Below are positions 34,908-62,590 of a stretch of DNA of 64,000 nucleotides, piece by piece. The stretch covers positions 496,001 through 560,000 of the forward strand of contig NZ_CP155576.1 of the NCBI RefSeq assembly GCF_039693965.1. The letters are read 5' to 3'. Origin of the DNA: Moraxella sp. K1664. GTDB lineage: Bacteria > Pseudomonadota > Gammaproteobacteria > Pseudomonadales > Moraxellaceae. The stretch's first letter is position 1, and every line of letters begins with the position of its first letter. A program made the translations under genes and the position numbers. The notes beneath the pieces are model-generated. The model ran no database searches. It was not told the DNA's origin and saw only the letters and a program-made list of their open reading frames with translations.

Positions 34908-35579
34908 CTACTCCCCCACAACATCACGCACCACACTCATCTCGCTATGGCGAATGTCCGTACCGCTACTGGTATAGATGACAAGCTCCGCCACGTTACG
35001 GGCATGGTCGCCCACCCGCTCCAACGCTCGCAATACCCACAGCGTGTGCATAATCTCGGACGACTTTATCTCATCTTTGTCCTGTAATGCCACCAACAGT
35101 TCGCCATACTCGCTATCAACAAGCTCGTCCATCTGCATGACATCAAAGGCAAAACGACTGTCGTGATTATTAAAGGCTTCCAAAGCGTCCAGCGTCATCA
35201 TACGCACATTGTCGGCAAGGGTGTGGACATTGGCATGAATGGGCGTGTCATATAGGGCAATGCGAGCGATTTTTACTGCTTCATCGCCAATCCGTTCAAG
35301 GTCAATCACCGCCTTACTCATGCTCATGATATACCGCAAATCCACCGCCGTGGGCTGACGCATGGCGACAAGTTTGACCACTTTGTCATCAAGCTGTCTT
35401 TCATAGTCATTGATTGTCTTGTCTGACTCAATGACCGCCCGTGCCAGCTCTTTGTCGCCATCGGATAGGGCTTTGATGGCTTTACCGACATTACTGATTG
35501 CCAAATTGCCCATCGTTAGGAGCAATTCTTTGGCAACGGTTAATTCGTGGTCGTAGGATTTTGAAGTGTGTTTTTCCAT
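34908..35579 (-). CDS. phoU: Phosphate transport regulator PhoU
   Basis: Negative regulator of the Pho signal, 223 residues from the ATG at 35579. An in-frame TTG at 35591 is possible but the GGA element before 35579 fits better. It has two PhoU domains of three helices each. The signatures DLRYIMSMSKAVIDLERIGDEAVKIA (first half) and LRALERVGDHARNVAELVIYTSSG (second half) carry the metal-binding Glu/Asp repeats. It couples PstB activity to PhoR. It should follow pstB directly, but an IS110-family element lies between. Confidence 0.93.
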   Translation of the reverse strand: MEKHTSKSYDHELTVAKELLLTMGNLAISNVGKAIKALSDGDKELARAVIESDKTINDYERQLDDKVVKLVAMRQPTAVDLRYIMSMSKAVIDLERIGDEAVKIARIALYDTPIHANVHTLADNVRMMTLDALEAFNNHDSRFAFDVMQMDELVDSEYGELLVALQDKDEIKSSEIMHTLWVLRALERVGDHARNVAELVIYTSSGTDIRHSEMSVVRDVVGE

Positions 35580-35663
35580 TATTTTTTCCAAATTTTAATT
35601 AAAAATTATTAAAATTGTCAATTAAACTTCCTAAAAAACCAGTTTTCCGTTCGCCCTTGTATC

Positions 35664-35850
35664 AACCCAACACCAAACCTAGATTATCTGCTAGAATGTT
35701 GTTGGGTTATACAAGCAAAGAGAACACGGGTTCGCCCTTAGTGTCTTAACACTGGTGCTCAGATGGTGTCCTTTGCTTGTCATCTTAACTCTGAATGGTA
35801 TCTAAGTGCGTTTATTAAAACAGACACTGCATAAACAAGGCAAGAGACAG
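35664..35850 (+). ncRNA. Predicted bridge RNA of the IS110-family element
   Basis: Three stem-loops are visible. (1) AACCCAAC / GTTGGGTT (35664-35671 with 35701-35708). (2) ACAAGCAAAG / CTTTGCTTGT (35711-35720 with 35771-35780), extended by ACAC / GTGT; inside, GTTCGCCCT (35730-35738) equals the left target and GCTCAG (35757-35762) is the reverse complement of CTGAGC at the right target, with a hairpin AGTGT / ACACT between the two. (3) A less regular domain where ATGGTATCT (35795-35803) equals the right end of the element and ACAAG (35835-35839) is the reverse complement of CTTGT at the left end. These are the expected places of left and right target guides and left and right donor guides in a bridge RNA. 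The exact 3' end is uncertain. Confidence 0.8.
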
Positions 35851-36834
35851 ATGATACACTATATTGGCATAGACATCAGCAAAGCAAAGTTTGATGTTGC
35901 ATTTATAAACCCAAGCACAAATAAAGTAAAAACCAAGGTTTTTAACAACAACAAAGCAGGCTTTGATTTACTGCTTGCTTGGTTAAAAACCAATGTCAGC
36001 AATCATCTTGATGAGCTACACATCATCCTAGAAGCAACAGGGGTTTATCATGAACACCTAAGTGAGTTTCTTGATGATAATAATATCAAGCAAAGCATTG
36101 TCAATCCTAACTATGTCCGCAAATTTGCAGACAGTTTGGGGGTAATCCATAAAACTGATAAAAAAGACAGCATTATTTTATCAAGGTATGGTTATAGCCA
36201 CAAGCCTGAGGTTTGGGTAGCACCTAGCATTGAAGCCAAACAGCTAAAAGCTCTATTGGCTCGCTTAGAAGCACTCAAAGAAGATTTGCAACGAGAGCAA
36301 AACCGACAAGAGTTGCTCTTATCACCCAATCTGCCCGATTTGGTTAAAGCATCCATGCAAACAGTCATCAGTGTCCTTCAAGAGGAAATTGCCAAACTCA
36401 CCAAAGACATTGATGACTTTGTTGACAAACAACCAAGTTTAAAGCAAGACAAAACCTTACTTGAAACCATTGACGGCATTGGTTCTGTTATTGCCAAAGA
36501 AGTGGTATGCTTAATACATACCAAACAATTTAAAAAAGCCTCACAGATGGCTTCGTTTTTAGGCTTAATACCCAAACAAAGACAGTCAGGTGTCTTTAAG
36601 GGAGCAACCAAACTGTCCAAACAAGGGCAAGTCTCTTTGCGTGCTAAGCTGTATATGTCTGCAATGAGTGCCATTCGTTATAATAGCACCATTAAGGCAT
36701 TTTATGAACGATTACAACAAAACGGTAAAACCAAAATGCAAGCCTTATGTGCTTGTATGCGTAAATTGGTACATATCTGTTTTGGTGTTATCAAAACCCA
36801 AACATCCTTTGAGCAACAAGTATCTTTAAGTTAG
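35851..36834 (+). CDS. IS110-family transposase (DEDD recombinase)
   Basis: Transposase of 327 residues from the ATG at 35851. The frame is open 45 bases further up, but AAGGCAAGAG before this ATG and the conserved start MIHYIGIDISKAKFD fit better. The N-terminal RuvC-like DEDD domain shows Asp8, Glu61 in LEATGVYHEHL, and Asp103 / Asp106 in KTDKKDS. A coiled-coil region (about 130-190) links to the C-terminal Transposase_20 domain with ETIDGIGSVIAKEVV and FLGLIPKQRQSGVFKG, where Ser246 is the likely catalytic serine. Full length and intact. IS110 recombinases act with a bridge RNA; the one predicted here lies directly upstream. Confidence 0.93.
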   Translation: MIHYIGIDISKAKFDVAFINPSTNKVKTKVFNNNKAGFDLLLAWLKTNVSNHLDELHIILEATGVYHEHLSEFLDDNNIKQSIVNPNYVRKFADSLGVIHKTDKKDSIILSRYGYSHKPEVWVAPSIEAKQLKALLARLEALKEDLQREQNRQELLLSPNLPDLVKASMQTVISVLQEEIAKLTKDIDDFVDKQPSLKQDKTLLETIDGIGSVIAKEVVCLIHTKQFKKASQMASFLGLIPKQRQSGVFKGATKLSKQGQVSLRAKLYMSAMSAIRYNSTIKAFYERLQQNGKTKMQALCACMRKLVHICFGVIKTQTSFEQQVSLS

Positions 36835-36897
36835 TTTGTAAGATACTAGATACCAGATACTTAAAAAACCATTGACTTAGGTGGGGTATCATGGTAT

Positions 36898-36990
36898 CTG
36901 AGCCATGCCTGCGGGTGGCGGAAAACCGTTATGGGCAGGCATAGCTCACCACGAACGGTTTTCTTTAATTCAGGGTTTTGCAGAAAGTCT
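36898..36990. repeat. Right part of the REP-like palindrome split by the IS
   Basis: This continues the repeat whose left part is at about 35625-35657. Its features are GAGCCATGCCTGCGGG, GGCGGAAAACCG, then GGGCAGGCATAGCTC and CACGAACGG, and an end block GGGTTTTGCAGAAAGTCT. The arm TGCCTGC pairs with GCAGGCA. In the copy at 62472 the corresponding arms are CTTGTCGAA and TTCGACAAG: different sequence, same pairing. Confidence 0.8.
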
Positions 36991-37071: not shown

Positions 37072-37947
37072 TCAACCATACCGCCCTGTAATATAATCTT
37101 CGGTTGCTTTTTGTTTGGGGTTGGTAAATATCTCTTTGGTCTCGCCCATTTCAATCATATCGCCCAAATACATATAAACGGTATAATCAGAACACCGTGC
37201 CGCTTGTTGCATATTATGCGTAACAATGGCAATGGTATAATCTTCTTTTAAATCATCAATCAAATCTTCAATCGCCCCTGTGCTAATCGGGTCAAGGGCG
37301 GACGTTGGCTCATCAAGTAGCAAGACTTCGGGACGGGTTGCCACGGCACGGGCGATACATAGGCGTTGCTGTTGTCCGCCTGATAAGGACAGCCCTGACG
37401 CTTTTAGCTTATCCTTGACTTCATTCCATAGGGCGGACTTTTTTAATGCCCACTCCACCCTGTCGTCCATCTCCGACTTTGAGAGTTTTTCATACAGTTT
37501 TACCCCAAAGGCGACATTGTCATAAATGGACATCGGAAAAGGCGTGGGCTTTTGAAACACCATGCCTACTCTGGCACGGAGTAAGTTTACGTCCACCGAT
37601 TTATCCAAAATATTCTCGCCATCTAAGATAATCTGCCCGTCCGCTCTCATGCCTTGATACAAATCATACATTCTATTAAACGTGCGAAGTAAGGTAGATT
37701 TGCCACAGCCTGAGGGCCCAATAAAGGCGGTTACTTTTTTGTCGGCAATGTCCAAGTTGATGCCTTTTAGGGCTTTAAAATCGCCATAATAAAAGTCCAA
37801 TTCACGCACCGACATTTTTGGCACGATGACTTTATCAGTTTGGCGAGTATGGTTATCCACAATGGGGGCATTTAGGGTCATAAAATCTGCCTGATGATTG
37901 GTAAATGAAGTGTGGGTTTGGGTGGGTTTTTCTAATAACGCTGACAT
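37072..37947 (-). CDS. pstB: Phosphate ABC transporter, ATP-binding protein
   Basis: ABC ATPase of 291 residues energising PstCA. Walker [10 protein letters not shown] (about 77-85), the signature [14 protein letters not shown], Walker [14 protein letters not shown], and the switch His in [15 protein letters not shown] are present. An N-terminal extension of about 45 residues before the core ([10 protein letters not shown]...) is longer than in E. coli PstB. A TTAGGAAAAATCCC segment precedes the start. It is transcribed after pstA with a 186-base gap that holds two short palindromes. Confidence 0.95.
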
Positions 37948-62471: not shown

Positions 62472-62590
62472 ACTTCCTGCAAAACTAGGTTTTCCGTTCG
62501 CCCTGAGCTTGTCGAAGGGTAGCGGAAAACCGTTATGGTTCGACAAGCTCACCACGAACGGTTTTCTTCAATTGGAGTTTTGCAGGAAGT
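62472..62590. repeat. REP-like nested palindrome, unoccupied IS110 target homolog
   Basis: Outer arms ACTTCCTGCAAAACT (62472-62486) and AGTTTTGCAGGAAGT (62576-62590) are perfect inverses. Inside, CCGTTCGCCCTGAGC and CTTGTCGAA pair with TTCGACAAGCTC and CGAACGG. GTTCGCCCTGAGC at 62496-62508, with core CT at 62503-62504, is the same site that the IS110-family element occupies at 35656. It lies between two genes of the same strand. Confidence 0.9.

Follow-up and report, generated by a model that had tools for sequence, protein, structure and literature searches.

An IS110-group insertion element that lies between phoU and pstB, where it splits a REP-like palindrome, appears to carry its own insertion guide: its noncoding 5' end, from 35658 to about 35853 of the 64,000-nucleotide stretch of Moraxella DNA analysed here (the window), very probably (we put it at about 95%) encodes a bridge RNA of the IS621 type for the recombinase gene just downstream, and would direct insertion into REP-like sequences at a CT core. 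The evidence lies in sequence comparison: (i), the guide segments match the flanks and ends of the element, (ii), 34 copies in the genome sit at the site in question, (iii), guides and flanks change together in relatives and, (iv), the predicted structure is maintained by compensatory changes. Production of the RNA, its complex with the protein and the chemistry would follow the work on IS621. A first-pass annotation had assigned the IS621-type mechanism to this element, and the assignment is supported.

The element and its predicted bridge RNA

The neighbouring genes, phoU (34908-35591) and pstB (37072-37947), lie on the minus strand, as do phoB and a phoR-like gene past phoU; PhoU, PstB and PhoB score above the curated cut-off of their best model and PhoR slightly under it. 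The left end of the element is a structured noncoding stretch of 195 nt upstream of the transposase gene, and its 5' end shows the IS621 layout of a 5' stem-loop, a target loop, a donor loop and four guides. The features are:

35649-35657, plus strand: left target GTTCGCC with the core CT, the left half of the split REP-like repeat (GTTCGCC in 32/34 copies, GTTCACC in 2/34)
35656-36899, plus strand: IS110-group insertion element, both copies of the CT core included; ends fixed by 34 copies with differing outer flanks
35663-35709, plus strand: 5' stem-loop, predicted by RNA folding
35711-35780, plus strand: target-binding loop; closing stem ACAAGCAAAG (35711-35720) / CTTTGCTTGT (35771-35780)
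35730-35738, plus strand: left target guide GTTCGCCCT, identical to the left flank (35649-35657) and co-varying with the flank in relatives
35740-35753, plus strand: hairpin separating the target guides, from covariation
35757-35762, plus strand: right target guide GCTCAG, reverse complement of CTGAGC (36898-36903), co-varying in relatives
35763-35764, plus strand: target-loop handshake guide AT, complementary to the two donor bases preceding the core; AT in 55/56 loci
35781-35853, plus strand: putative donor-binding loop, read from the sequence only; a possible closing stem CATCT/AGATG contains the transposase ATG
35795-35803, plus strand: left donor guide ATGGTATCT, identical to the right end (36891-36899)
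35805-35828, plus strand: hairpin separating the donor guides, from covariation
35831-35839, plus strand: right donor guide ATAAACAAG, reading CTTGTAT (35656-35662) with two bases skipped
35851-36834, plus strand: IS110 DEDD recombinase, 327 aa (Pfam PF01548, PF02371; NCBIfam NF033542; PDB IS621 8wt6)
36872-36877, plus strand: -35-like TTGACT; with TATCT (36895-36899) and T (35658) a putative circle-form promoter with a 17-bp spacer
36891-36899, plus strand: right end (left donor) with the core CT
36900-36965, plus strand: right target GAGC with the rest of the REP-like repeat

Much of this had been read by the first-pass annotation. The matches of GTTCGCCCT, GCTCAG and ATGGTATCT are exact at the positions it gave, both target guides do lie inside one stem with a hairpin between them, and the likeness that it saw to the IS621 bridge-RNA architecture is in line with the available text of PMC11208160 and PMC11208158. 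Two of its claims stand in part. ACAAG (35835-35839) is indeed the reverse complement of CTTGT (35656-35660), but the guide is 9 nt long (35831-35839) and not 5. The bridge RNA was placed in 35664-35850, but its 3' end may lie further on: a possible stem closing the donor loop (35781-35785 / 35849-35853) reaches into the transposase ATG (35851-35853), which would put the end of the RNA at about 35853 or beyond. AGATG arms are found in several relatives too, and folding of the bridge RNA and translation may compete at this putative stem.

How easily such matches arise was gauged by drawing 20,000 random sequences with a first-order Markov model fitted to the 193-nt region. One of them contained the 9-base left flank and 13 contained the 9-base right end; the complement of the right flank (6 bases) turned up in 899, which makes this single match weak, and the three occurred jointly in none. 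The same region folds better than its dinucleotide shuffles (z -2.59; 2/200 shuffles as good). At the gathering score, Rfam 15 returned two tRNAs and no bridge-RNA family match in the whole window; a loose E-value search of 35600-36950 gave two sub-threshold matches, none within 35658-35853. As for the handshake, whose guide role is taken from PMC11208158, the donor side is less complete: G35840 can pair with the target base preceding the core and C35841 cannot pair with the next base.

The recombinase keeps D8, E61, D103, D106 and S246, of which the four acidic residues would have the roles usual in this family. Its domains score 91 bits against PF01548 (DEDD/RuvC), 76 bits against PF02371 (Transposase_20) and 221 bits against NF033542. 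Residues 1-320 of a query lacking the initial Met align to 8wt6, the solved structure of the IS621 recombinase (E 1.4e-54), and, over the same span, to the homologous ISCro4 recombinase (PDB 9t56, E 2.8e-49). The catalytic serine of the IS621 recombinase is named in PMC11208158.

We propose that the excised element would circularise, joining its right and left ends, and that the joined ends would rebuild a promoter, TTGACT-17-TATCTT, from which the bridge RNA would be transcribed. The target loop would then read both strands of GTTCGCC-CT-GAGC within a REP-like repeat while the donor loop would read ATGGTAT-CT-TGTAT, the junction of the element's own two ends; the recombinase would swap strands at the CT core, giving insertion with no bases lost or added. 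On sequence alone the TTGACT-17-TATCTT arrangement would arise at the joined ends, and TTGACA or TTGACT is similarly placed in two relatives. A promoter scan of the integrated form, in which the circle junction lies outside its view, gave no plus-strand site in the element.

Copies and target sites in the genome

The 2.78-Mb genome holds 34 full-length copies (identity 99.36-100%). Aligned with their differing outer flanks, as the first-pass annotation had suggested for other copies, all 34 sit at the site predicted by the guides, GTTC(G/A)CC-CT-GAGC (32 G, 2 A), and all show the CT core at both junctions, where intact sites GTTC(G/A)CCCTGAGC have a single CT. Since the first 198 bases are the same in 34/34 copies, these copies confirm the site and cannot test whether guides change with flanks. 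The intact site is left 40 times (29 G, 11 A) and a reversed control pattern 0 times. One intact unfilled site lies inside the window, at 62496-62508 (G000:C1:558496-558508).

The flanks are mostly REP-like palindromes, whose arm right of GAGC takes one of two forms, (T/C)ATGCC (type B) or GTCGA (type A); among the 40 empty sites two have an arm of neither form, and one of these two apparently lies within a gene. Filled sites comprise 24 of type B and 10 of type A, empty sites 5 of type B, 33 of type A and the two unclassified (Fisher p 7.6e-7 on the classified sites), and the guides do not read the arm (36904-36914 here). GAGC(C/T)ATGCCTGCGGG has 28 exact occurrences, 24 of which, in a comparison by eye, lie directly at a right end of the element. 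Filling is not explained by the guide match alone. The excess of type-B arms possibly reflects some property of the DNA that promotes insertion, flank sequences exchanged between IS copies by gene conversion, or history.

Two other ideas were rejected. Longer pairing of the right guide does not seem to account for the arm preference, the preceding TGGT pairing no better with that arm when compared by eye. A preference for G over wobble A at the site (filled sites 32 G and 2 A, empty sites 29 G and 11 A, p = 0.029) is confounded with arm type and was dropped because it is gone within type A (8 G and 2 A filled, 22 G and 11 A empty, p = 0.70). In two of the copies, L029 and L032, the left and right REP halves resemble different REP types by eye, which suggests recombination between IS copies.

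Guides, flanks and structure in relatives

Relatives were sought in 299 genomes of the family, 24 of which, the source genome included, have a match at 1e-70; in most of the 299 no more than seven candidates were scored, so that copy numbers are lower bounds. A genus search and a scan of named genomes with an alignment query (9 loci) supplied further relatives; a scan of the named-genome contigs with a single protein query gave 0 loci, and a plasmid collection searched at 1e-60 gave no match. The genus matches at 30-38% identity (L106-L113) were kept outside the co-change test. Of 64 loci given, 63 were matched (L148 had none at 1e-20), and seven without the CTTGTATC left end (L124, L128, L129, L144, L145, L146, L167) were set aside, leaving 56; the window's own element brought these to 57, and removal of L140, the same DNA as L117, gave the 56 loci analysed. 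Guides were taken from fixed alignment columns defined by the window's element and not by matching each flank.

Over its seven non-core bases, the left guide matches its own flank at 7 positions in 24 loci, 6 in 22, 5 in 4 and 4 or fewer in 6. With the commonest flank taken for each, the 18 distinct left guides match their own flank at a mean of 5.6/7 positions and swapped flanks at 2.2; none of 100,000 permutations, which are uncorrected for relatedness, reached the observed sum (highest 78 vs 101). For the 13 distinct right guides the figures are 3.4/4 and 1.1, again with 0/100,000 permutations and relatedness uncorrected, and the first two bases after the core match the right guide in 51 of the 52 loci with a right end. 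One genome has ACCCAACCT with CTAC in 9 copies (one with flank GCCCAACCT), another genome has ACGCACCCT with CTAC in 2 copies (one G-to-A wobble), and another genus has GTATAACCT with CTCTTA. The poor left-guide loci are L122 (1/7), L123 (2/7), L139 (1/7), L157 (4/7), L158 (3/7) and L125, which scores 0/7 in register but 8/9 at a one-base shift.

The donor side is read with more caution. In the window's element both donor guides match its own ends. Among the loci with the CTTGTATC left end the right donor guide fits AT-NN-(A/G)-CAAG in 57/57, a fit with some circularity, since having this left end was the entry condition. Against GGTATCT, the left donor guide has no mismatch in one of the 56 loci (this element), one in 52 and two in 2, and is unread in one; since the CTTGTATC and GGTATCT ends themselves served as the condition for taking in a locus or a right end, these donor matches are no independent test of co-variation.

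Structure is conserved as well. The pairs examined were picked by eye from the alignment in three stems, which make up the whole set (ten in the target-loop closing stem, four in the inner hairpin, five in the donor hairpin). Over these 19 pairs in 22 sequences, 96.6% of 408 cells are paired and 133 are changed on both sides, against averages of 67.9% paired and 40.8 doubly changed cells in shuffle controls and at most 50.2% paired in slid controls. In the closing stem 9/10 pairs are changed on both sides with 93.3% of cells paired in the 22 sequences; in the inner hairpin (35740-35753) 4/4 and in the donor-loop hairpin (35805-35828) 3/5 pairs are so changed, with 100% of cells paired in both. 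The first-pass annotation had staked its reading on guides that follow the flanks of other copies and on a 5' structure conserved among relatives: relatives with other flanks do carry matching guides, 6/56 loci being poor, and compensatory conservation is strong.

These results bear on other ways to explain the element. The recombinase might read REP sequences through protein-DNA contacts, the 5' matches being remnants or chance: REP targeting has been reported for IS elements of several families (available text of PMC1525189), and the preference at filled sites for one REP-arm variant beyond the guide match fits this as well. We nevertheless hold it to be very unlikely, as the 18 left guides change along with the flanks, chance matches are improbable and the loop structure is conserved. 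A structured leader that regulates transposase translation, with the start codon held in the closing stem, would account for the ATG within the possible CATCT/AGATG stem and for the AGATG arms of several relatives; it predicts no loops that copy changing insertion flanks, and we give it equally little credence as an alternative, while it may be an added role of the same RNA.

An IS1111-type seekRNA element, which belongs to the same wider family, is less probable still. The noncoding region lies upstream of the transposase gene and the bottom-strand match comes before the top-strand one, as in the IS110 type according to the available text of PMC11187229. IS1111 elements have sub-terminal inverted repeats of 7-17 bp, and none was found in the terminal 40 bases, where the longest exact inverted match is 5 bp and lies at unequal distances from the ends.

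A second IS110 group and comparison with known systems

The genome also holds three copies (L111-L113) of a second IS110 group, 30% identical to the first. In the left end of this group lies TTCGCCCCT, identical to the left flank of L111, one base off that of L113 and several off that of L112; the same end also carries GTAG, which corresponds to the right flank CTAC shared by all three. In L112 (reverse strand, roughly 675-796 after reversal of the locus) the first 60 bases are tandemly duplicated and joined exactly at the core CT of the guide. The element may have inserted into its own guide DNA (TTCGCCC-CT-AG vs the target TTCGCCC-CT-AC) with a later deletion, a possibility to be set against slippage between short repeats, which is the simpler explanation; it looks as if L112 may have recombined at the guide of another second-group copy. 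Across guide programs, the base after the left guide equals the base after the target core in 2/20 against 6.5 expected (p = 0.005, permutation), a signal of self-target avoidance that is weak since guide programs cluster by clade. It is tempting to speculate, with odds clearly against us, that rules beyond pairing operate, filling depending on the REP arm (through a DNA feature that the guides leave unread, or gene conversion) and the post-guide base being kept different from the post-core base so that the guide gene escapes its own targeting; where this fails, as L112 suggests, the element could jump into its own guide.

Four loci (G000:C1:222600-223547, L106, L107 and L109) carry a 38%-identical IS110-like gene, perhaps Piv-like, whose surroundings are alike over about 1.5 kb, unlike those of scattered IS copies.

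The interest of the element lies in its numbers: one genome offers 34 filled and 40 empty sites that match the guides, and relatives carry 18 different left guides. This high-copy natural system lends itself to a study of how bridge recombinases, enzymes attractive as programmable tools for inserting DNA, select their targets, and it prompts the questions of what beyond the guide decides insertion and how the element spares its own guide gene. In literature on Moraxella together with IS110, or together with insertion sequences and REP, no paper title describes the element, ISfinder lying outside this search. IS110 bridge RNA, natural guide variety and REP targeting are in print, as the available parts of PMC11208160, PMC11208158, PMC11187229 and PMC1525189 attest.

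Among known systems, IS621 of Escherichia coli is alike in its homologous recombinase, its left-end bridge RNA with a 5' stem-loop, target and donor loops, its CT core, its REP target and its CTTGTAT right donor, which a 9-nt guide reads while flipping out two of its bases (PMC11208160, PMC11208158, in the text available). In that guide A157-U158 and 161-165 read seven donor bases and 159-160 are flipped out, the target loop holds a non-canonical G-T pair (both PMC11208158), and a junction promoter is reported in PMC11208160. The target differs, being GTTCGCC-CT-GAGC here, and so does the right target guide, with six bases including the core here vs four in IS621; that the bridge RNA may reach the transposase start codon is given as a feature of this element, outside the comparison. 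The likeness to ISCro4 (PDB 9t56) covers the homologous recombinase, guides standing outside it. ISEc21 (PMC11187229, available text) is also of the IS110 type, with its seekRNA upstream of the transposase gene and the bottom-strand match first, but its transposase belongs to a size class of 345-385 aa (327 here) and that text describes no donor guides; natural redirection is reported there for its relative ISMch6. ISPa11, ISPpu9 and ISPpu10 belong to IS110 in the wide sense and have all counted copies in REP (6/6, 7/7 and 7/7; PMC1525189, in the part available), but differ in host and target, and PMC11187229, as far as its available text goes, places ISPa11 in the IS1111 family. The element described here is a well-supported additional member of the IS621 type.
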